From Natronocalculus amylovorans (GTDB lineage Archaea > Halobacteriota > Halobacteria > Halobacteriales > Haloferacaceae), in NCBI RefSeq assembly GCF_023638035.1, contig NZ_JAKRVX010000002.1, forward strand, positions 124,001 through 188,000: a stretch of DNA of 64,000 nt, written 5' to 3'. Shown here in pieces: positions 3,861-17,087 of this stretch. The notes beneath the pieces were generated by a model, which worked only from the letters and a program-made list of their open reading frames with translations, was not told the DNA's origin and ran no database searches. Numbering within the stretch: position 1 is the first letter of the stretch; every line of letters starts with the position of its first letter. Both the position numbers and the translations under genes were made by a program.

Positions 3861-4466
3861 TCACTGCTCCACCAGTGCTGGCAGCCCTTGATTTCGCTTG
3901 GATTTGAGAAATGCGCGTTCTTGTTGTGAGAGGTTGCCTCGGGCACGATAGCGATCGAGTCCGCGTTGGTAGAGCCGTGTTGTCTGTTTTGCTGGCTTGT
4001 CGATCGGGCGTTCAAGTACTACCTCAGCAAGCCCGGTCTCATCGCCCGTGAATGCGAACCCTGCTTTGTGGAGTGCATGATACGCGAATGGATTATTCAC
4101 GGCGATCACAGCTATTTGATAACCATGAGTTGCGGCTTCGGAGAGAACATGCATGATGAGCCGTGGGCCAAGCGCTTGGCCCCGCCGATCGGATCGAACA
4201 GTCACATACCGAATCCACAGTCGGGATGGATCGGTTCGGTCAGCATTGAATGCAACCGCAGCGATGACCGAGTGGTCGAACACAGACGGGTCTACACTTG
4301 GGGGTACCGCAGGAATATCGTCTGGAATCGACTGTTTGGCATCCGGGCTTCGAATCACTGCCTTTCCAGTATTCGTTGGAATAAATTTTCCGGCATAGCT
4401 AAAGAGCCGGTAATCAAGCCGAATTGAGACGGAATCCGACGGCCATCCAAGCGTGACACACTCCAT
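3861..4466 (-). CDS. GNAT family N-acetyltransferase
   Basis: A 201-residue protein with a central GNAT fold, which transfers the acetyl group of acetyl-CoA to an amine or protein N-terminus. The acetyl-CoA pyrophosphate loop is seen as [15 protein letters not shown] (about 91-105), a variant of RxxGxG/A, followed by the [22 protein letters not shown] block (motif B). The N-terminal 60 residues and a basic C-terminal tail with many Arg/Lys are outside the domain. It ends 43 bp before the FEN-1 start on the same strand and is divergent from a methyltransferase. Substrate unknown. Confidence 0.8.
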
Positions 4467-8414: not shown

Positions 8415-9227
8415 TCAGAGTGTTTCTGTGAGAAACGCGCGTACTGTGCGATCGAATGGTCGTTTTTCTTCATCAAATACGCCGTGTCCGTGCCGGCGGA
8501 ATAGATACAGTCGAGCATTTGGAATTGAATCTGCAGTTTCACGCAGCGTCTGTTCGTCAAAGAACACATCTTCGTCGCCACCAATTACAAGAGTTGGTGC
8601 ATCAATATCCGTGAGCCGATCGCACACGTCAATGTCTGCAAGGGCGTTCATCGTGACTACGACATCGGATGGGATTGGTGGAACTGACACTGTTACATCC
8701 GCTGGAAGTGACGCTAAAGCCCCATAGAGCGATTGTCGCCAACCACTGTATGTCACATCAATGCTTTCTTCGTAGATCGCCTCCCAGTTGTGTGCCTCCG
8801 CAAATTCGGCCCATCGCTTCGCAATCGCGGTGCCTTGCTCTGTAATTCGGCAGCCAGAGACACCAAGCACAAGCCGATCAACAATTTCGGGGTGTTCTGC
8901 AGCAAGGAGCTGTGCAATACAGCCACCCATAGAGAGGCCATAGACGGCAACCGGCTCAGCGAACCGGTCTGCGATTGCATCTGCATACGCGTCAGCCATC
9001 TCTTCGATTGTGTACCCCTCTGCCATCTCAGACGGGCGGCGAATATAGTAGACGGTGAAGCTGTCGGTGAACCGACGGAAATGCCAGTTTAAAAACCAAG
9101 ATTTCAGCCCGTCGATCGGACCGGTAAATGCGTCACTCGCCCCGGGAAGTACAACCAGTGGTTTTGGTCCATTACCAAACTGTACATACGGAAGTTCGTG
9201 GTTGAGATAGCCAGTTGTGGTTGGCAT
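8415..9227 (-). CDS. Alpha/beta hydrolase
   Basis: A 270-residue alpha/beta-hydrolase fold enzyme. The oxyanion strand is VVLPGASDAFTGP, the nucleophile elbow is YGLSMGGCIAQLLA (Ser near residue 93), the acid lies in VIGGDEDVFFDEQ and the catalytic His in FRRHGHGVFDEEKRPFD near the C-terminus, so the triad is complete. The start at 9225-9227 (MPTTTGYLNHELPYV) was preferred to a start 31 residues earlier with no family match. Similar proteins include esterases and haloperoxidase-like hydrolases; substrate is unknown. Confidence 0.88.
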   Translation of the reverse strand: MPTTTGYLNHELPYVQFGNGPKPLVVLPGASDAFTGPIDGLKSWFLNWHFRRFTDSFTVYYIRRPSEMAEGYTIEEMADAYADAIADRFAEPVAVYGLSMGGCIAQLLAAEHPEIVDRLVLGVSGCRITEQGTAIAKRWAEFAEAHNWEAIYEESIDVTYSGWRQSLYGALASLPADVTVSVPPIPSDVVVTMNALADIDVCDRLTDIDAPTLVIGGDEDVFFDEQTLRETADSIPNARLYLFRRHGHGVFDEEKRPFDRTVRAFLTETL

Positions 9228-9424
9228 TACATACCTGTTAGGTTGGGAGGTTCTTGAGGATGTGGTCTGTTGCGTGACAGGATGGATCAAGCCGACGAAC
9301 ATCATGGTACAATAACACATGTTATTTGTGACACATTGTCTGTTAACTCATGCTACAAACTGTCTCTGTGGGGTGTTGTCGCGGTTCTCGCAACGGTTTT
9401 TGTCTTACAGCCTAAGTATTAGGT

Positions 9425-9625
9425 ATGCGTACATTCAGTCTGAAAAATACGATCGAACCGTTCTCAAGCCGCTTCGATTTGATCAGTGGCTCGATCGAGC
9501 GCGTTGTCTATCCGCTTGAATCAATTGGTGTCGTCTCAGCACAGTATCTGGGCGAGCTATCAACGAATCCAAACGCATCCGTTTCGATCGGTGCTGATGG
9601 ATACGTTGTTGAAGAAAAGCAGTAG
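9425..9625 (+). CDS. Small hypothetical protein
   Basis: A 66-residue reading frame I do not recognise. Support for coding is indirect: it contains three CGATCG words in 200 bp, like native genes here, and the translation is balanced, with a C-terminal acidic tail (GADGYVVEEKQ). A short inverted repeat CCTAA-GTA-TTAGG (9411-9423) ends one base before the ATG. No known motif or membrane segment is seen. Confidence 0.5.
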   Translation: MRTFSLKNTIEPFSSRFDLISGSIERVVYPLESIGVVSAQYLGELSTNPNASVSIGADGYVVEEKQ

Positions 9626-9840
9626 CGCCGATTTTTGCGCGAAGACGTATCCTCGAGATGTCTTCGTTGTGTACCATAGACTCCAACGAAGGGCAATATT
9701 TTTTCTTTTGTAGCCGCCCACTCTGAAACCCTGCGCTAGAATGTGTTTGAGCGTTCACTTCGGTATACTCTATAGTATAGTGAAAAGAGCCCCCACGGGA
9801 TCAAAGAGAGGCACAACAGATGAGACAGGGTAGTTCATCC

Positions 9841-9997
9841 CCGGCATTAATGTAGGCCGGTAGTTTATAGGCTAGTTGCTCCCGTTGGGAGCCGCTTTGA
9901 GAGGGAGTGTTGTTGTCTAGACGTGCTCCCTCTCTGGCGCACACACGGTGCGCAGCTATGTGTTAGCCCATTCAGTTATCAGAGTTGGGGTTTCCCC
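9841..9997. ncRNA. Candidate structured RNA with a four-way junction (in the 9626-10160 gap)
   Basis: The 535-bp gap between genes holds a compact array of exact inverted repeats. CCGGC (9841-9845) pairs with GCCGG (9856-9860). GGCTA (9870-9874) pairs with TAGCC (9964-9968) and encloses three hairpins: GCTCCC/GGGAGC (9878-9883/9887-9892), GAGAGGGAG/CTCCCTCTC (9899-9907/9926-9934, 9 bp) and GCGCAC/GTGCGC (9937-9942/9948-9953). GGGG-TTT-CCCC (9987-9997) follows. The layout is a cloverleaf, but no tRNA arms, RNase P or SRP RNA motifs are seen. The strand is undecided: TATA-like stretches lie on both sides (9765-9779 and 10000-10008). Confidence 0.45.
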
Positions 9998-10160
9998 TAG
10001 TATATAATAGTTGTTTGAACGACATTATTTGGTGACAATTATCTGGGGAAAAATGTGGCCATTGGTCATAGTTTTAACAACGATTTCAAACATTGATTCG
10101 GGTACACTGTCGCGCTTTTTGAACAGTAACAGCCATTTTACTCCTCACAAAACGTAGTAT

Positions 10161-10895
10161 ATGAAACCAGGTTCTACCAGCGGTGTGCATCTTCTACGGA
10201 ATGCAACTGTTTTTTTGACGGTCGGCGAGACCACATTCCTCGTTGATCCATTATTTGCGCCACCTGAGCAACTACCGCCAATAGAGGATACACCGAACGA
10301 TCGGAGAAATCCGCTTGTCCCACTGCCAGACATGGAACTGTCGTATGATGCGGTGGTGGTTACTCACCGTCACGTGGATCACTTCGACGAGAGAGCAAAG
10401 GAAGAACTTGACAGCAAAGTCCCGCTATTTTGTCAACCCGAAGATGAAACTGAATTTGTGCACGATGGCTTCACTGACGTACGGCCAGTCAGCGACAACA
10501 TATCGTTCCGAGGAGTGACAATCTATCGAACACCAGGGCAACACGGGCACGGAGATCTGGCCAAACAGATGGGACCTGTTTCTGGCTTTGTTTTTGAAGC
10601 CGATCGGACGATCTATCTCGCGGGAGATACAGTCTGGTACGATGCAGTCGAACGAACAATATCTCAATTTACTCCAGACATGATTGCTCTCAACGGTGGA
10701 GAAGCCCGATTTAACTACGGAGAGCCGATCACGATGGGTATAGACGATATTGCTGCGGTTCGTGATATTGCTACTGGGACACTTGTGGTCGTCCATATGG
10801 AAGCGATTAACCACTGTCTACTCACTCGCGAACAACTGCGGAAATCAGTAGATGATATCACTGTTCCAGAAGATGGTGAGTCTGTTACGTTTTGA
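10161..10895 (+). CDS. MBL-fold metal-dependent hydrolase (UlaG-like)
   Basis: A 244-residue metallo-beta-lactamase-fold protein. The metal-binding motif is VVVTHRHVDHFD (about 68-79, HxHxDH), preceded by TTFLVDPLFAPP, and later ligands are in YRTPGQHGHG (His), YLAGDTVWYD (Asp) and VVVHMEAINH (His near the end). This matches the UlaG/UPF0173-type subgroup. Family members hydrolyse varied phospho- or ester substrates, so the substrate is open. An A/T-rich stretch (10135-10140) lies about 23 bp before the ATG. Confidence 0.87.
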   Translation: MKPGSTSGVHLLRNATVFLTVGETTFLVDPLFAPPEQLPPIEDTPNDRRNPLVPLPDMELSYDAVVVTHRHVDHFDERAKEELDSKVPLFCQPEDETEFVHDGFTDVRPVSDNISFRGVTIYRTPGQHGHGDLAKQMGPVSGFVFEADRTIYLAGDTVWYDAVERTISQFTPDMIALNGGEARFNYGEPITMGIDDIAAVRDIATGTLVVVHMEAINHCLLTREQLRKSVDDITVPEDGESVTF

Positions 10896-11304
10896 GTAGT
10901 AAGGTACGGTCTGAATAAGCCGATTTGAGGGGCAAAGCCATATCCGTGTTCGTGCTAATCAGAGATCTGCTCAGAGAAACGCTAAGATACAGCGAGTTGT
11001 GGAGGTTAAGAGCCTGAGTCGACAGTCACGCCCGGTAGGGTACTCTCAGAAATCCCCTGAGAAATGGCTTCAGACACGCAAACAACGTATCGACCGCTTC
11101 TACCACTCAAAAATAACATGCCAGCTGAGGAACTTCTCGGTTATTGACGATTCTTGAAGAGTAAACTAACTCAGCGTAAAATAGCTCGTGAGACGTGATC
11201 AAGCTGGATGTTTAATTTCTGTCCGACCCCGTGGCATCCGGGTTGGAGGTCTGTGAATGGCACAATTACATCCTGGCCTCTGAAGAAAGGCAAACCCACC
11301 GCAC
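10896..11304. other. 409-bp gap without a recognised gene
   Basis: No gene is called. An open stretch of about 66 codons without an initiator (plus strand, ending with TGA near 11156) reads as a basic protein fragment and may be a decayed gene, but I could not match it to a family. The gap sits between the native MBL-fold gene and the GC-richer ferredoxin operon, so it may include the border of transferred DNA. Confidence 0.35.
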
Positions 11305-11622
11305 TCATTTCCACGGATTCGGTACAAGATCAGCTTGGACCTCTGCGCCTACCTCAATCCGGCAGTCAGACCTCGGTTCGGCCACACAGAGTAGGACGTA
11401 GCCGTCTTGTCGGTGTTGCGGTTTTAATCCTCGCGCTCGTTTCACGTGGACAAGTCCACCCTCCAGCAAGCGTCCGGTGCATGTGGCGCAGGCACCGTAC
11501 AGGCAGCCATAGGGAATGCCAAGACCTGCACGTTCGGTCGCGTCGGTGACTGTCTCAGCCTTTCGAACGTTGACGGTCGCTTCTCGCCCGTCGCGCCATT
11601 CTAGAGTAACTTCGTGAGACAT
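11305..11622 (-). CDS. Plant-type [2Fe-2S] ferredoxin
   Basis: A 105-residue ferredoxin carrying one [2Fe-2S] cluster. Ligand spacing is C40-x4-C45-x2-C48 in YGCLYGACATC and C79 in YVLLC, exactly the plant/bacterial type. Unlike the well-known haloarchaeal ferredoxin it lacks the long acidic insertion. It starts 6 bp after the stop of the selenium-binding-protein homologue, so both are surely one operon; a role as electron carrier for that enzyme or a partner pathway is inference. Base composition is richer in GC than most of the window and the gene has no CGATCG word. Confidence 0.92.
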   Translation of the reverse strand: MSHEVTLEWRDGREATVNVRKAETVTDATERAGLGIPYGCLYGACATCTGRLLEGGLVHVKRARGLKPQHRQDGYVLLCVAEPRSDCRIEVGAEVQADLVPNPWK

Positions 11623-11628
11623 CGCTGT

Positions 11629-13032
11629 TTATTGCCAAACGTCGCTGGTGCAGTCCCCACCAGGCCAACGAATTTCATGGGCGCGGGCGGGGCCGCCAGG
11701 GGCGTCTCCGAAATCGACCACAAATTCCTCGTCGAGTTCCATCCGACCCTCTTCAGGATATACGTCCGCTTTCATCATTACCGATCCTTTTTCGCCGATT
11801 TCGGGGTAAAACTGGTTGTCCCACGAGGAGAACAAGGATGTAGTCCAGTAGAGCCGTCGACCATCACGGGAGAGCTGGAGCATCTGGGGTGCGCCACGGA
11901 CATCGTGGCCGCCGATACTCTGGCGCTCCGCAAAGTTGCCCCCAACCCAGCACTGATCGACTAACCGTGGGTTCCCAGTGTCGCTAATGTCGTACATCCG
12001 CACGTCGCCATGGAGCCAGTTTGAAAAGAACATGTACTGGTCGTCGAGCGACAGGAGGATGTCTGTCACCAGTCCCGGCACAGGCATGTCCCAGTCAGGA
12101 TGTTCGCGATCCGCAACATCGATGACTTTCTCCCACTCCCAGCGTCCGTCTTCAGCCTCCCAGAACCGGAGGATGTTCGACGAGAGTGCAGCGCCAACGT
12201 ACCCCTCAGTCTCCTCGGGGTTGTGTGGCATCCGAATCTCGAGCGGGATAAGCCCCTCCTCGCCGAAGGTTAGTGTCTGCTGGTGTTCTTTGGTCTCCCA
12301 GTCCCAGACGTGGATGCTGTTGCCATACTTGCCTGCCTCAACATCGTCCAAATCAAAGCCTGGGTAGTACGTTTCCGGCGCCGCCCACTCCGTCGACAGC
12401 ATCACGCCATGCCGGGGCTGATACCAGTAATCGTAGTTCATCTCCATATCGCCACGATCGACCTCCCAGTGGCCATCGATGGAGAAGTCGTCTTGATCGA
12501 GTTGGAGAAATCCTCCAGGAAGTTCACCGTTAGCGTTTCCAAGCATACTGATGACGATCTTCCCGCCGGGAACGCAGTGGACAGTGTGTGGTGCCGAGAG
12601 ATCCTGCTCAAATACCTCCTCCGGTTCGATCACCTTCTCGATTGTCGGATCGCGTGGGTCGGAGGTGTCGATGATATGAATGCGCGAGGAGCGCTGGCCG
12701 GGGACGATCAGATGATCCCGGACCAGCCCCTCGGCGTGACAGGAAGAAGAACAGGTATTCCAGCCGAAGTGGTGGAGTTCGTCGCCCTTGTTTGGCATCT
12801 CGACGGTATTGATCAGTTCGCTGTACGTCTCCGAATCCGGGTCGACATCGACGACGCCAACGAAGTCTGGTTTATCGACGTCCATCCCGACACGAACGCC
12901 CATAACAAAGGCAGTCTTCTCGCGTTCGGACTCGGTGCGCATCGCTGCGGGCGTTGGATACCCCGGGCCCTTTACTGTGTGATGTTCATGATGGTGGGCG
13001 TCGGTCGACTGATTGCGTTCATCAGTGCTCAT
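11629..13032 (-). CDS. Selenium-binding protein (SBP56/methanethiol oxidase family)
   Basis: A 467-residue protein of the SBP56 family. Bacterial MtoX and human SELENBP1 oxidise methanethiol to formaldehyde, hydrogen sulfide and hydrogen peroxide. Family blocks seen are HHFGWNTCSSSCHAEG (about 91-106, with the Cys-rich selenium/active-site motif), APHTVHCVPGGKIVISMLGN, HGVMLSTEWAAP, YVGAALSSNILRFW and the C-terminal ARAHEIRWPGGDCTSDVWQ. The His residues suit copper binding as reported for MtoX. No signal peptide is seen after MSTDERNQ; a His-rich stretch HHHEHH lies near residue 13. The start at 13030-13032 avoids a 53-residue unrelated extension. Higher GC and one CGATCG word in 1.4 kb suggest transfer. 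Confidence 0.9.
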   Translation of the reverse strand: MSTDERNQSTDAHHHEHHTVKGPGYPTPAAMRTESEREKTAFVMGVRVGMDVDKPDFVGVVDVDPDSETYSELINTVEMPNKGDELHHFGWNTCSSSCHAEGLVRDHLIVPGQRSSRIHIIDTSDPRDPTIEKVIEPEEVFEQDLSAPHTVHCVPGGKIVISMLGNANGELPGGFLQLDQDDFSIDGHWEVDRGDMEMNYDYWYQPRHGVMLSTEWAAPETYYPGFDLDDVEAGKYGNSIHVWDWETKEHQQTLTFGEEGLIPLEIRMPHNPEETEGYVGAALSSNILRFWEAEDGRWEWEKVIDVADREHPDWDMPVPGLVTDILLSLDDQYMFFSNWLHGDVRMYDISDTGNPRLVDQCWVGGNFAERQSIGGHDVRGAPQMLQLSRDGRRLYWTTSLFSSWDNQFYPEIGEKGSVMMKADVYPEEGRMELDEEFVVDFGDAPGGPARAHEIRWPGGDCTSDVWQ

Positions 13033-13596
13033 GCTACATTTTGCCACAGCTGGATAGTAATAATTAATTATTATATTTATGAATGACAACCCATCTGTGA
13101 TGTGGGTTCTACTGCGGGCGTCGGTAACTCTCAATGGTGGGTTGTCAGGTCTCCGGACAAACTTGGGGTGAGTGAGATACCAGGGCGGCATTACATTCTG
13201 TAAGCTATGTGTTCCTGTCGATAGTATTCATCCGTAAAAATGAGACTCCATAGTTTCGCTACACTGCGGCGACATGGTAATCAAAACGTGTGGCGTAAAT
13301 AAAACAATCAGAAGAGTGGAGTTCTACTGAGACCGATTATAGGTAGTTCTGATCAGCTGATTATTCGCCGGATTTCTGTCTAACATCGGATTCCGACAGA
13401 CTAAATTTGGGATCTATTTGGATATCAAGACCTGCTTCGAATGTGTACAAACGCAGACGGAGGCGACCCGCAACAGTGAGGATGTTGGGTTCATTCAAAT
13501 CGAAGGTTCCAACAGACCCCCATAAAATCGACGCTCTGTCGATAGAAGCGGTAAGCGTACAACATATCAACAGTTAGAAACCGTGCGTAATTCGTA
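13033..13596. other. 564-bp gap between the SBP operon and tRNA-Val, with a long-range inverted repeat
   Basis: Besides the palindrome, GACAACCCA (13085-13093) and TGGGTTGTC (13138-13146) form a perfect 9-bp inverted repeat 44 bp apart. The second arm resembles the 3' end of the nearby tRNA gene (TGGGTTGCC at 13597). A 69-codon minus-strand frame at 13361-13570 has no recognised family, no CGATCG and no clear promoter, so it is not called. This may be the margin of transferred DNA. Confidence 0.4.
13058..13073. promoter_or_regulatory. Perfect 16-bp AT palindrome at the promoter position of the SBP operon
   Basis: TAATAATTAATTATTA is its own reverse complement. It spans 26-41 bp before the ATG at 13032, the place of the TATA box in a nearly leaderless haloarchaeal promoter. 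It may act as TATA box and repressor site together. The position and symmetry are seen; regulator and effect are inferred. Confidence 0.55.
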
Positions 13597-13671
13597 TGGG
13601 TTGCCCAAGATTCGAACTTGGGAGCTTCGCCGTGTGAAGGCGACGTCATAACCAGGCTAGACCAGCAACCC
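13597..13671 (-). tRNA. tRNA-Val (anticodon CAC)
   Basis: A 75-nt intronless cloverleaf on the minus strand. Acceptor arm GGGTTGC/GCAACCC with discriminator A, anticodon stem TCGCC/GGCGA around the loop TTCACAC (anticodon CAC, reads GUG valine), and T arm CCAAG-TTCGAAT-CTTGG are all perfectly paired. CCA is not encoded. The GC-richer SBP/ferredoxin operon lies on its 3' side. Confidence 0.95.
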
Positions 13672-13761
13672 GATCGTACTATCCAATACCCCGAGAACGA
13701 ACTTAAGAATTGTCTTGTTTAGTGAGTTTTACAGAGTGCAAAGAGAATACCCCGAAGTGAT

Positions 13762-14058
13762 TCACGCAACGGGACGTTCTGTGGACTGTTCATCGTCCGT
13801 CGCTTCGTTGTTCCGGTAGGTTTGAATCCGATCGCGTGCGGTAGCGATCGCATCGCGCGCTTCGCCCTCTGCACGAGCTTCAATCTCTTTGAGATCTGCT
13901 TGAATCTGCTCAAGCCGGCTTTTTTCAGGTTCTTTCTCGCGACCAACAATGCCACGAACACGATGTTCGATCGGTGAGAGCTCTTCACGGAGTCCTGCTT
14001 TGAGATGTCCTGCTGCTCGACCAACGTAGTAACGCGCATCTTTGAAGTGCTTGTTCAT
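13762..14058 (-). CDS. Haloarchaeal conserved small protein (DUF7553-like)
   Basis: A 98-residue, highly charged, helical protein. The start NKHFKDARYYVGRAAGHLKAG is typical of a conserved haloarchaeal family with short amphipathic helices; the middle (LEQIQADLKEIEARAEGEARDAI) has coiled-coil-like heptads, and the tail is acidic and disordered. No catalytic motif is seen and function is unknown. It is a single gene between tRNA-Val and the cobalamin adenosyltransferase operon. Confidence 0.75.
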   Translation of the reverse strand: MNKHFKDARYYVGRAAGHLKAGLREELSPIEHRVRGIVGREKEPEKSRLEQIQADLKEIEARAEGEARDAIATARDRIQTYRNNEATDDEQSTERPVA

Positions 14059-14174
14059 ATCCGTCCTTACGCAGACAACAAATATAACCTTTGTGTTGGG
14101 TATTGTACAACATAATGGTGAGTAGACTACGTGATATCATATGGTGAACAAATAGTGAAAAGAGATGATCGAAG

Positions 14175-14708
14175 TCAGTAAGATGGCGCTTCCTCTGGAA
14201 CACCATCGCGTTGGTTCACGAGGCGTCCAAGCGTAAATAATGCATCAGACAACCGATTAAGATAGACCACCGCTTCCTCGTTAATTGGGTCCGTTGTCGC
14301 AAGTTCAACTGATCGACGCTCAGCGCGGCGGACGACTGCTCGAGCATGATGAAGCGATGCACCAGCTGTACTCCCACCAGGGAGGATGAACGACCGAAGC
14401 GGTTCCAACTCTTCATCCGCGGTATCGATCATGTCCTCAAGTACCGAAACGTGTTTTGGCTCAAGCTGTGGGTCATCGGGGTCAGGATCCGGGTTTGCAA
14501 AATCAGCCTGAATAATATGAAGGTGGTTCTGTATTGTTTCTAACCATGCGTCAACATCGTCGTAGCCACTTGGTCGTATCCTACCGATCAATGCATTGGC
14601 CTCGTCAACAGTACCGTATGCTTCGATTCGAGGACTTGTCTTTGAGACGCGGGACATATCTCTGAGATCAGTAAGCCCCTCGTCCCCTCGTCCGGTATAT
14701 ATCTTCAT
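14175..14708 (-). CDS. pduO: Cob(I)alamin adenosyltransferase, PduO type
   Basis: A 177-residue ATP:cob(I)alamin adenosyltransferase that makes adenosylcobalamin. The N-terminal ATP-binding motif is KIYTGRGDEGLTDL (residues 2-15), AYGTVDEANALIGR (about 30-43) holds the conserved core, and LHHARAVVRRAERR and NRLSDALFTLGR near the C-terminus complete the five-helix PduO fold. Full length. Its start overlaps the glutaredoxin stop by 4 bp (14705-14708), so the two are translationally coupled, glutaredoxin first. No B12 biosynthesis genes are next to it. Confidence 0.95.
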   Translation of the reverse strand: MKIYTGRGDEGLTDLRDMSRVSKTSPRIEAYGTVDEANALIGRIRPSGYDDVDAWLETIQNHLHIIQADFANPDPDPDDPQLEPKHVSVLEDMIDTADEELEPLRSFILPGGSTAGASLHHARAVVRRAERRSVELATTDPINEEAVVYLNRLSDALFTLGRLVNQRDGVPEEAPSY

Positions 14709-14947
14709 TGTGCGAGTGTTTGGTCGATGTATTCGAGAATCTTTTCGCTTTCTGCCATTGTGACACCACGATCTTCATCAACAAGGACCGGGACGCCACG
14801 CTGTCCACTCACTCGTTTGACTTCGTTTCGATCGGAGTGCATCGCCTCGGTCCAGACTGTTTCATACTCAATCTCGTTTGCTTCGAGCGCATCGTGGACT
14901 TTGACACAGAAGGGACAGCCGTCGAGTGCATACAGTGTAATCGACAT
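14705..14947 (-). CDS. Glutaredoxin-like protein
   Basis: An 80-residue thioredoxin-fold protein with the dithiol active site GCPFCVK (about 8-14), the cis-Pro region RGVPVLVDED and the C-terminal ESEKILEYIDQTL helix, which fits the GST-N/glutaredoxin group. It would reduce disulfides with gamma-glutamylcysteine or another low-molecular-weight thiol in haloarchaea (inference). Start MSITLYALDGCPFC at 14945-14947 was chosen over a start two codons earlier. First gene of an operon with pduO. Confidence 0.88.
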   Translation of the reverse strand: MSITLYALDGCPFCVKVHDALEANEIEYETVWTEAMHSDRNEVKRVSGQRGVPVLVDEDRGVTMAESEKILEYIDQTLAQ

Positions 14948-14987
14948 ACACATCCTTCGTGATACGACGGCAAGTAGCTTCGCCTGT

Positions 14988-15389
14988 CTATTCGGTCACT
15001 TGATATGGCTCAATTGCCTCCCTCCAAGACGGTGGTATCGGGGCGGAAGATTGTGTACTGCTATCGAATGTGACCAACGTTGTTTCTGCAGTTGCTGCAA
15101 GCCGATCGCCTGCGTGAATCTCATACCGCATTGGGATACTCGATCGACCCAAGTCACCAATTGCAATACCGACTGTAACCGTGTCACTGAGTTGAATCGG
15201 TGAGAGATAGTCGATCGACAGCGATGCAACAACTGAATCGACCTCATCCAACCCAAGATTAAGCACGTCACGCACAAAATCAGTTCTGGCTTGTTCGAGC
15301 AACGTAACGTAGACTGCATTATTTACATGACCCATCGTGTCTAAATCGCGAAATCGAAGGGGAACTTCAGTTACAAATGGAAAGTCCAT
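14988..15389 (-). CDS. Acyl-CoA thioesterase (hotdog fold, 4-hydroxybenzoyl-CoA type)
   Basis: A 133-residue hotdog-fold thioesterase. The family motif RFRDLDTMGHVNNAVYVTLLEQART (about 11-35) carries the catalytic Asp-type region. DYLSPIQLSDTVTVGIAIGDLGRSS and YEIHAGDRLAATAETTLVTFD follow in the usual order. It would hydrolyse an acyl-CoA in the cytosol; substrate unknown. An ATG four codons upstream (15399-15401) is also possible. An inverted repeat CACGCA-TTCA-TGCGTG (15391-15406) lies right at this start and could affect initiation. Confidence 0.86.
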   Translation of the reverse strand: MDFPFVTEVPLRFRDLDTMGHVNNAVYVTLLEQARTDFVRDVLNLGLDEVDSVVASLSIDYLSPIQLSDTVTVGIAIGDLGRSSIPMRYEIHAGDRLAATAETTLVTFDSSTQSSAPIPPSWREAIEPYQVTE

Positions 15390-15531
15390 GCACGCATTCA
15401 TGCGTGGATATTGTATGTAAGCACCGATCGTGGGATGACTAGAAATTAATATTGCAGCATGTAGTTTATATTTGTGAAATTCAACAGTGAAAATCAACAT
15501 CTTAAACATGGCTGACCACAGAGTGCGGAGT

Positions 15532-15696
15532 ATGAGCCTTGAGATCGAACACGCGTGTCCAAAGTGTGAGGGCGATCAGACATTCTACCGTGCAGCAAGC
15601 ACCATGCTTCACCTTGGCGAGAAAACCAAATGGCGTTGTACCGAATGTGACTACGGATTTATCAAAATCAACGGCATCGACAGCTCAACGGCATAA
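15532..15696 (+). CDS. Small zinc-ribbon protein, haloarchaeal
   Basis: A 54-residue protein with two Cys pairs, CPKC (about residues 8-11) and CTEC (about 38-41), spaced as in a zinc ribbon. The rest reads GDQTFYRAASTMLHLGEKTKWR and a short FIKINGIDSS tail. This is a common haloarchaeal small protein (DUF7838-like). Nucleic-acid or protein binding is likely but not shown. ATG at 15532 chosen; an upstream start at 15487 adds 15 residues. Confidence 0.78.
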   Translation: MSLEIEHACPKCEGDQTFYRAASTMLHLGEKTKWRCTECDYGFIKINGIDSSTA

Positions 15697-16089
15697 CCCA
15701 CGTACACGCCTATTTTTCACAATAGTTTGTCGACTGCCGATCTCGGCCCTCAATCTATCCAGTTCACATCACCTGCCGGGTCGTAGTGATAGCGCACGCT
15801 GAGTTACGAGAGGGGATGACCAAAGAGAAGACTCCGTGTTGGACTGCCCATCTCAATCGAAATGTAGCATGACAGACTCGAATTGTTTATTTGGACCGTC
15901 GTCTCGAACGTGCTCCAGAGGCTCTTTTGTGTGCAAACCCCCAGACTCAAGTCTCTGTCTGCATCGTCTCGAAGGTCACTCCATTTACAACCAAATTTAA
16001 TCGATTACCTACGAGACTCGAGGAAAGCACCAGTTAGGCAGGATGGAACACCAACACATAAACTACATAACGCAATATCAAATAGTGCA
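15697..16089. other. 393-bp gap, no gene seen
   Basis: No acidic or family-like reading frame is found on either strand. A 10-bp direct repeat TCGTCTCGAA occurs at 15899-15908 and 15964-15973. The gap is downstream of both neighbours, which converge on it, so promoters are not expected; a decayed gene is possible. Confidence 0.35.
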
Positions 16090-16857
16090 TTATCGGTACG
16101 TAATATTGAGCTCGATCTCAGAGGCGATCGCTTGGAGCAACTCGGGCAGTGCAGACTCAATACCGGCATCTTTCATCCGATGGCGAGGCCCAGCGACGCT
16201 GATCCCACCAAGCACGCGATCGTCCGTTGCCATCACAGGACAGCCGACCGACCACAGTCCAGTCAGATGCTCATCGGCATCGATCGCAAAGCCACGGTCT
16301 CGAATCAGATTAAGCTCTGAAAAGAGCGCATCTCGATCCGTTGTCGTAGCATCCGTTTTCGCGGGGAGCCCCCACCGATCAATAATTTCTGAAACAGTTT
16401 CATCAGACATCGCCGCAAGTGTTGCTTTTCCAGCCGCCGTATGATGAAGAAATACACGTTTACCCACGCGGGCTTCGGTTCGAACCGCTTTCTCCCCAGT
16501 CCGACGAAAAACAAAGATACCCTTTCCATGTTCCGGGGCAATAAACTGTGCAAGTTCCCCAGTGGTCTCTGCGAGTTCTGTAACTTTCGGCTCGACATCC
16601 GCGAACGAGGGATATTGTTCGCGAACGTGCCCACCCAAATCAAGAAATCGAAGTCCAAGTCGATACCCTGAGGCTGTTCGAACAACGTACTGGTGTTTCA
16701 AAAGCGTCGAGAGGTGTCTGTGGGCAGTGCTTTTTGAAACGCCAACAGCCGACGCAACCTGTGAGACACCCACTCCATCGGATTGTTTGAGCGCGTCAAT
16801 AATCGCAAACAGCGTTTCATCTGATTGGATTAGCTCTCGGTCTCGATCGCCATTCAT
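16090..16857 (-). CDS. IclR family transcriptional regulator
   Basis: A 255-residue IclR-type regulator. The winged HTH is at about 8-65 (SDETLFAIIDALKQSDGVGVSQVASAVGVSKSTAHRHLSTL), followed by the effector domain (LDLGGHVREQYP, FLHHTAAGKATLAAMSD, GLWSVGCPVMATDDRVLGGISVAGP). IclR proteins bind palindromes as dimers of dimers and respond to small carbon compounds. Two identical-type palindromes GTTCCG-N5-CGGAAC lie between this gene and the divergent acyl-CoA dehydrogenase; one overlaps its own promoter region. That context predicts autorepression and control of the glutaryl-CoA genes. Confidence 0.93.
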   Translation of the reverse strand: MNGDRDRELIQSDETLFAIIDALKQSDGVGVSQVASAVGVSKSTAHRHLSTLLKHQYVVRTASGYRLGLRFLDLGGHVREQYPSFADVEPKVTELAETTGELAQFIAPEHGKGIFVFRRTGEKAVRTEARVGKRVFLHHTAAGKATLAAMSDETVSEIIDRWGLPAKTDATTTDRDALFSELNLIRDRGFAIDADEHLTGLWSVGCPVMATDDRVLGGISVAGPRHRMKDAGIESALPELLQAIASEIELNITYR

Positions 16858-16887
16858 ACACACTCCTCGAGCAGCAGCGTTTTCACT

Positions 16888-16904
16888 GTTCCGTCTTGCG
16901 GAAC
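16888..16904. promoter_or_regulatory. Palindrome GTTCCG-N5-CGGAAC, copy 1 (likely IclR operator)
   Basis: A perfect 6+6-bp inverted repeat around 5 bp, 31-47 bp before the IclR ATG, over the expected TATA position on the minus strand. The same sequence pattern recurs 92 bp away at 16980. Repetition of the exact arms and spacing makes chance unlikely. Binding by the adjacent IclR is inference. Confidence 0.7.
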
Positions 16905-16979
16905 AAATTAACGTGTAGAATGATAAAAGCGCGATTTCGATCGTCAATATATGGCCCCGGTCATCACCACGTACACTGT

Positions 16980-16996
16980 GTTCCGCTTCACGGAAC
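16980..16996. promoter_or_regulatory. Palindrome GTTCCG-N5-CGGAAC, copy 2 (likely IclR operator)
   Basis: The second copy has the same arms and the same 5-bp spacer length but other spacer bases (CTTCA rather than TCTTG). It lies about 60 bp upstream of the TATA-like TTAATAT (17057-17063), which itself is 25-31 bp before the acyl-CoA dehydrogenase ATG at 17088. This distance suits an upstream activator or a looping repressor site. Confidence 0.68.
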
Positions 16997-17087
16997 CTAT
17001 GTCGTCCCAATACTATAGATATCATCCGTTTCAGCCCCTCTATCGCCCACAAACCTTAATATCGGCAAGCAAAAACTCTCGACTATC

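Follow-up and report, generated by a model that had tools for sequence, protein, structure and literature searches.

A SELENBP1-like SBP56 protein and its adjacent ferredoxin: a recurrent gene pair proposed as a two-component thiol oxidase

Methanethiol is oxidised in the course of the marine sulfur cycle, and the outcome of this step is disputed, being given either as H2S with H2O2 or as sulfane sulfur without H2O2 (accessible part of PMC10936201). Within the SBP56 superfamily, MtoX was described as a periplasmic enzyme accompanied by SCO1/SenC and MauG genes and 26–29% identical to its archaeal homologues (PMC5739008, in part). The "cluster 1" methanethiol oxidases (MTOs) of Rhodobacteraceae, which share three cysteine motifs with the protein described below, were found to oxidise methanethiol (PMC10936201, in part), and human SELENBP1 is a thiol oxidase by the title of PMC10362175, in the available portion of which mutation of any of six residues (H73, H74, H137, H140, D189 and E252) strongly suppressed activity. 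Here we describe a gene pair of this superfamily in a 64,000-nucleotide stretch of the haloarchaeon Natronocalculus amylovorans (the window, that is, all the DNA analysed). The first gene, at 11629–13032 on the minus strand, encodes a selenium-binding-protein/SELENBP1-like SBP56 protein of 467 aa; the second, at 11305–11622 on the same strand, encodes a plant-type [2Fe-2S] ferredoxin of 105 aa whose C-terminal tail ends in NPWK. They are separated by 6 bp, and the window copy is the only SBP56 match in this 3.26-Mb genome. The ATG at 13032 was preferred as the SBP56 start over that of a longer mechanical open reading frame (ORF) at 13191, since relatives align from residue 1 and carry their ATG at that point. 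An earlier reading of the DNA alone (the sequence-only reading) had taken the pair for a probably transferred methanethiol oxidase-like module with a ferredoxin of its own.

Distribution of the gene pair

The sequence-only reading had staked the link between the two genes on their association in other genomes, which was strongly found. The 80 named relatives are the best-ranking ones among 527 SBP56 matches; in 40 of the 41 haloarchaeal and 32 of the 39 bacterial loci, a cognate ferredoxin lay downstream of SBP56 on the same strand (40 and 31 by tblastn, with L081 added by a hidden Markov model), and the bacterial occurrences included Proteobacteria (Pelagibacter and roseobacters) and Cyanobacteria. 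In two of the loci (L043 and L045) the ferredoxin was found about 490 bp further on, with a CoA-binding protein gene in between. We also searched 292 evenly drawn Halobacteriales genomes at E ≤ 1e-30 for SBP56 and E ≤ 1e-22 for this ferredoxin, finding the former in 97 and the latter in 82; both were present in 80 genomes, SBP56 alone in 17, the ferredoxin alone in 2 and neither in 193 (Fisher p 7e-52, kinship ignored), so that such a ferredoxin occurred in 2 of the 195 genomes lacking SBP56. The ferredoxin was directly downstream (within 600 bp) at 83 of 109 SBP56 places, a count that excludes a second SBP56 fragment of one genome (G064), and at 26 of the 26 places with at least 77% identity to the window protein, the window itself being counted.

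Moreover, the two proteins were found to diverge together. Pairwise SBP56 and ferredoxin distances were correlated across 71 loci (rho 0.87), within haloarchaea (0.51, 40 loci) and within bacteria (0.65, 31 loci), exceeding all 500 permutations after L041 and L081 were dropped, and linkage to the ferredoxin changed 6 times on a tree of 103 SBP56 proteins against about 20 times with shuffled labels. In the Alphaproteobacteria, 20 of 289 genomes carried an SBP56-family gene: six had a ferredoxin nearby, including the centre genome G305, which was picked for having the pair, and one locus (L132) with a gap of 263 bp; nine held SELENBP1-like genes without ferredoxin (L136–L144); and five were low-scoring MtoX-like genes, a label given by low score and missing motifs, not by gene context. 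That the genes are chance or hitch-hiking neighbours with no functional link could be argued from the commonness of Fer2 proteins, some ferredoxin match being present in 40 of 40 relatives searched; the fact that the two genes co-occur and adjoin each other in archaea, Proteobacteria and Cyanobacteria alike, together with the correlated divergence, contradicts this explanation, which was rejected as having next to no probability. No SBP56–ferredoxin fusion was noticed among the loci examined, in which no systematic search for one was made.

The SBP56 family itself is known, and a dedicated ferredoxin partner was unreported in the literature searched, which left most subscription journals and preprints outside its scope and was in part seen as excerpts. 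The accessible parts of PMC8371827, PMC10974252 and PMC10203303 hold no description of the pair, and a paper on the evolution of these proteins (PMC10277263) mentions neither "ferredoxin" nor "operon". In an expression table of PMC10203303, a ferredoxin and a selenium-binding protein bear neighbouring gene numbers and are both more highly expressed in one and the same marine species; the portion available draws no link between them.

The two proteins and their proposed reaction

The window SBP56 protein scored 649 bits on PF05694 (gathering cut-off 34), and its AlphaFold model (predicted local distance difference test, pLDDT, 87.9) adopts a propeller fold with PDB 2ece as best match (template modelling score, TM, 0.89). 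On the NCBIfam MtoX equivalog (NF052453) it reached 130.6 bits against a cut-off of 650. Its N-terminus (STDERNQSTDAHHHEHH) is polar and without a hydrophobic stretch, no signal peptide being visible by eye, and SCO1/SenC and MauG families were absent from the seven neighbouring genes scanned (8415–17052). MtoX proper was rejected on this score and anatomy; the earlier label "methanethiol oxidase-like" therefore stands for the family and the conserved copper-site residues, and fails as a statement of MtoX equivalence. The protein is, as judged from its sequence, of the SELENBP1-like type with conserved copper-site residues and of the ferredoxin-linked kind.

The putative copper-site residues are H87, H88, H149, H152, D201, E265 and H452, and the cysteines are C94, C153 and C461. 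H87, H88, H149 and H452, which match the copper ligands proposed for MtoX in an alignment to four unnamed MtoX-like sequences, were constant across all groups including those four, apart from one haloarchaeal row at position 452, whereas C94, H152 and C153 were constant in all groups except the MtoX-like rows. Among haloarchaeal rows C461 was kept in 27 of 27 and 13 of 14, and among the 32 bacterial rows of the linked type in all. W314 and H341, both constant, and W362 and W466, nearly so, mark the linked clade with its close unlinked relatives, and are missing from nine unlinked alphaproteobacterial rows.

The ferredoxin scored 54.3 bits on the Fer2 profile (cut-off 21) with the ligand arrangement C-x4-C-x2-C...C, and each of the four ligand cysteines was conserved in no fewer than 99% of 102 distinct ferredoxins from linked loci. 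It fell below the cut-off of the plant-type family TIGR02008 (68.4 against 81.15 bits), and its 38.3 bits against a cut-off of 150 on NF041393 separate it from the general haloarchaeal ferredoxin Fer. Past the fold it carries a C-terminal tail, whose ending [N/T]P[W/F] (L028 has Leu) a pattern script recovered from 70 of the 72 named ferredoxins of linked loci; in the two misses the tail was visible and lost in slicing (L026) or cut by a contig end (L081). Pro 102 was kept in 99% of the 102 archaeal and bacterial ferredoxins, and none of 60 PDB matches aligned beyond residue 95. In the model (pLDDT 93.9) the last five residues fall to 68, a drop compatible with, and no more than compatible with, a segment ordered only on a partner. 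A tail of this type was also seen in L224 (STPWK, about 3979–4224), in a genome (G253) without SBP56 at E ≤ 1e-30; this may be the remnant of a lost pair.

We propose, giving the idea about an even chance, that the pair forms a two-component cytoplasmic copper-dependent oxidase of a thiol, most likely methanethiol, with the ferredoxin as dedicated partner. The SBP56 propeller would hold copper in its central cavity and use O2 to cleave the C–S bond; its redox partner would be the [2Fe-2S] ferredoxin, perhaps docked through the conserved tail. Reduced ferredoxin would most likely feed electrons to the Cu/O2 site in the manner of a monooxygenase, according to CH3SH + O2 + 2e- + 2H+ -> HCHO + H2S + H2O, so that no free H2O2 would be released; an electron carrier replacing H2O2 production had been a tentative idea of the sequence-only reading. 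This direction of electron flow is preferred because plant-type ferredoxins are low-potential carriers. The same pairing data would fit a ferredoxin acting as electron acceptor, with SBP56 as a thiol dehydrogenase that saves electrons instead of making H2O2; among the weaker fold matches of the SBP56 model (TM 0.35–0.51) are nitrous oxide reductase and thiocyanate dehydrogenase, copper propellers that work with external redox partners. A low-potential ferredoxin would, however, be poorly suited to accept electrons from a methanol-like oxidation, which speaks against the dehydrogenase. The MTO reaction is moreover written with O2 in the available part of PMC10936201, and we regard an acceptor role as improbable.

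The ferredoxin could otherwise be a helper, reducing the copper site or a cysteine disulfide or persulfide during activation or maturation and standing outside each catalytic cycle. The three conserved cysteines of SBP56 would suit such a role, as would Paracoccus seriniphilus, in which a copper-chaperone-family gene (PF09948) directly follows the ferredoxin. Near-universal pairing in the window's clade and the conserved tail suggest a stable partner instead, and this alternative is unlikely, with some real weight left to it. In P. seriniphilus an annotated S-(hydroxymethyl)glutathione dehydrogenase lies two genes further on the opposite strand; neither neighbour recurred in the 80 loci.

Gene neighbourhoods bear on the substrate. 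On the predicted conjugative plasmid pP30_b of Phaeobacter inhibens (L229, 5149–13179), the whole row around the pair was annotated, in the order IclR, SBP56, ferredoxin, CoA-binding protein, rhodanese, metallo-beta-lactamase (MBL) protein, enoyl-CoA hydratase, acyl-CoA synthetase and GcvT. The GcvT protein reached 377 on the dimethylsulfoniopropionate (DMSP) demethylase model, whose cut-off is 410, and had PDB 3tfh, which we take to be DmdA, as best match; the MBL protein matched the dioxygenase half of Blh with 367 bits, the cut-off of the whole two-domain model being 625. With its rhodanese, persulfide-dioxygenase-like and DMSP-demethylase-like genes, this roseobacter cluster points to methanethiol. 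The acyl-CoA synthetase was far below the cut-off for a methylthiopropionyl-CoA ligase (288.5 against 822), and for the enoyl-CoA hydratases encoded next to two bacterial copies the best PDB matches were other crotonases, so we make no claim that they are DmdD. Across the 39 bacterial loci, whose flanks were of unequal length, relatives of these neighbours were found for the CoA-binding protein in 32, enoyl-CoA hydratase in 13 (one at 30% identity), the upstream divergent IclR in 11, rhodanese in 8, acyl-CoA synthetase in 3 and the MBL protein in none; a close DMSP-demethylase-like GcvT occurred in four (L045, L052, L057 and L070; 65–88% identity), with nine more at 22–36%. In L059 (4137–5768) and other Pelagibacter loci, an enoyl-CoA hydratase gene and a HalD-like gene of the halogenase/hydroxylase family precede SBP56. 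This hydratase may be a methylthioacryloyl-CoA hydratase; to our knowledge, the Pelagibacter lineage lacks DmdD.

The haloarchaeal enzyme might instead act on another thiol, a persulfide or a selenol, methanethiol being incidental there. The MtoX score far under its cut-off, the lack of a methanethiol source among the haloarchaeal neighbours and the title of the SELENBP1 study (PMC10362175, in part) would fit such a substrate; cluster 1 enzymes, by contrast, use methanethiol (PMC10936201, in part), and a linked bacterial copy stands beside a DMSP-demethylase-like gene. We consider a different substrate unlikely, albeit worth keeping in view. The alternatives to a ferredoxin-fed oxidase are not mutually exclusive, and the likelihoods attached to them need not sum to one.

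Several observations weigh against a two-component oxidase of methanethiol. The DMSP-type context belongs to bacteria, the haloarchaeal pairs having variable or housekeeping genes as neighbours, and no methionine gamma-lyase exceeded the family cut-off in the window genome (best 410 against 549.7 bits), which also favours another substrate. A ferredoxin was absent from the DNA examined in 7 of the 39 bacterial relatives (L044, L048, L050, L055, L056, L061 and L074), three of which (L050, L056 and L061) are nested among linked ones, and from one haloarchaeal locus (L009). Likewise, 26 of the 109 haloarchaeal SBP56 places had no adjacent ferredoxin at the cut-off, at least one of these misses being false (in G029, the same as L084, the neighbouring ferredoxin contains an insertion and scores below it). 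Such absences also suit a helper role. A ferredoxin paralogue whose tail is similar (SPWG) adjoins other genes, so the tail is not wholly specific to the pair; it was seen in genomes of the Halalkalicoccus group (L225, 3746–4090; L227, 3741–4058; also L226), where its neighbours are presumably RadA-like and SufU/IscU-like genes. We know of no biochemistry on a ferredoxin-linked SBP56 together with its ferredoxin. Finally, the cluster 1 enzyme RdMTO, of the linked type by its cysteine spacing, consumed methanethiol without added ferredoxin (PMC10936201, in part); ferredoxin is therefore not strictly required in vitro, a turnover that a helper would also allow.

A wider proposal, which we hold to be doubtful as a whole, is that a phylum-spanning branch of SBP56/SELENBP1 proteins in haloarchaea, SAR11, roseobacters and cyanobacteria would be ferredoxin-fed copper thiol monooxygenases that dock through the NP[W/F] tail and release formaldehyde and H2S but no H2O2, partner-less assays accounting for the family's contradictory findings of H2O2 and of sulfane sulfur. 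The recurrence of the pair in many archaea and bacteria, abundant ocean bacteria among them, suggests that these enzymes act with a partner omitted from laboratory tests so far. If the SAR11, roseobacter and haloarchaeal proteins need that ferredoxin, the rates and products measured would be those of half an enzyme, and the product dispute becomes testable by a single experiment. Moreover, SBP56 with an NP[W/F]-tailed ferredoxin is a genomic marker by which the linked type can be told apart in metagenomes from both MtoX and SELENBP1-like proteins without the link.

Origin and upstream elements of the locus

The pair is an old module with a history of transfer among haloarchaea. In quick trees, elongation factor 2 (EF-2) placed the window genome beside Halalkalirubrum salinum (95%) and then Halogranum, and the SBP56 trees also joined the window copy with that of Halalkalirubrum (Shimodaira–Hasegawa-like approximate likelihood ratio test, SH-aLRT, 93 and 87). 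A single clade for 12 Haloferacaceae (group code f1, so taken since Haloplanus ruber falls in it) was rejected by SBP56 (approximately unbiased test, p-AU 1e-50) and only weakly by EF-2 (0.025), which indicates that SBP56 moved among haloarchaea. Halobellus captivus and the window are 93% identical in SBP56 and 86% in EF-2. The EF-2 of H. captivus ZY8 (G312, L182) groups with Halorubrum lipolyticum (SH-aLRT 100), apart from other Halobellus rows, possibly through a mislabelled species or an EF-2 transfer. Among 72,556 plasmid records, 74 carried matches, and of the 40 listed eight are haloarchaeal; 50,697 phage records gave none, and carriage by phage was rejected.

The transfer supposed by the sequence-only reading is thus backed, among haloarchaea, by the tree and the plasmid copies; in the trees the window copy joins that of the nearest relative, so its arrival need not be recent. 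Acquisition next to tRNA-Val(cac) (13597–13671, minus strand), also suggested then, found no support. Beyond this synteny border (13597–15509), a cobalamin adenosyltransferase and a glutaredoxin are common to four relatives with spacings of 0.1 to 10 kb; on the pair's side none of six window genes matched in those relatives, the Halalkalirubrum contig ending near the tRNA there. At 12 bp or more, the tRNA and its edges had no same-strand copy elsewhere in the window and no inverted copy on the pair's side, and the flanks of the pair shared no word longer than 10 bp. A recent insertion at tRNA-Val was rejected, no integration repeats having been seen over these ranges (same-strand window-wide, inverted on the pair's side).

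The compositional contrasts reported earlier were reproduced: the closely spaced genes have a GC content of 57.6% against 52.0% for the window, a level reached by 0.3% of 623 sliding 1,728-bp windows (the pair's own included), and one CGATCG (at 12455) against 13 in the first 2 kb of the window. The latter contrast flatters, because those 2 kb are the window's richest 2-kb bin for the motif; the mean is 6.2 per 1,728 bp, and 17 of the 623 windows hold one or none. The GC and codon check proposed at the time split the pair, SBP56 being atypical at third codon positions (GC3 0.68; mean 0.50 and standard deviation 0.064 over 54 window ORFs) and the ferredoxin ordinary (0.54). SBP56 also exceeded the GC of its own 13-kb locus in 7 of 10 relatives compared (L002–L005, L007, L008 and L040; not L006, L011 and L012), so GC is a weak mark of foreign origin here, and composition favours such an origin only weakly.

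By-eye comparison of upstream regions revealed an AT-rich stretch at 13059–13079 (minus strand), a putative SBP56 promoter with a similar element at a similar place in several relatives. Exact copies of the palindrome TTGTCGYTCGACAA were found in 8 of 241 loci, representing 7 distinct places, and invariably lay 58 bp before the SBP56 start (5943–5956 in L002, L008, L009, L011 and L040; 1443–1456 in L101; 4943–4956 in L228), L006 having one mismatch. A regulator of the HTH_10 family (HVO_2928_N type) adjoins it in 7 of the 8, L008 being the exception, and was found at E ≤ 1e-20 in no locus lacking the palindrome, which is likely, from this association, to be an operator for the pair. The window carries TTGTCATTCATAAA at 13076–13089 (minus strand, at −57), a possible decayed operator with 4 mismatches, and no full-length relative of the regulator was found in its genome. 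A match of this quality is reached by L020 too; it is suggestive only that the window copy looks as if descended from a regulated form.

Comparison with described enzymes

MtoX of Hyphomicrobium VS and Ruegeria pomeroyi shares with the window protein the SBP56 superfamily and the histidines matching its proposed copper ligands. It differs in being periplasmic and accompanied by SCO1/MauG (by the available part of its description), whereas the window protein lacks a visible signal peptide, is paired with a ferredoxin and reaches 130.6 of the 650 bits set as cut-off for the MtoX model.

The motifs GWNxC, HTVHC and GGDC(T/S) of the cluster 1 enzymes RdMTO and RlMTO are also found in the window protein. 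The cysteines of RdMTO (82/143/448, spacing 61/305) correspond to the ferredoxin-linked L046 and those of RlMTO (76/140/456) to the unlinked L141, assignments that rest on published cysteine positions and not on full sequences. RdMTO consumed 44 uM and RlMTO 111 uM methanethiol, no ferredoxin being named in these assays in the portion of PMC10936201 available, from which the words "operon", "electron" and "Fe-S" are also absent. If the general assay conditions given in that study (0.3 mg/mL and 30 min) applied, with a mass of about 50 kDa, this would amount to about 7 and 18 turnovers, respectively; so few turnovers leave room for a missing partner, without showing one.

Human SELENBP1, a copper-dependent thiol oxidase, has no ferredoxin partner mentioned in the accessible part of PMC10362175. 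Its six activity-critical residues are all conserved in the window protein, H73, H74, H137, H140, D189 and E252 corresponding to H87, H88, H149, H152, D201 and E265 by motif and spacing, the human sequence standing outside the alignment. Sulfolobus tokodaii ST0059 (PDB 2ece), titled a hypothetical selenium-binding protein, has Ala for the third cysteine, a gap at W314, Ile at H341 and Lys at W362, and its chain ends before position 466; it shares the fold of the window protein, at the TM given above, with 44% identity.

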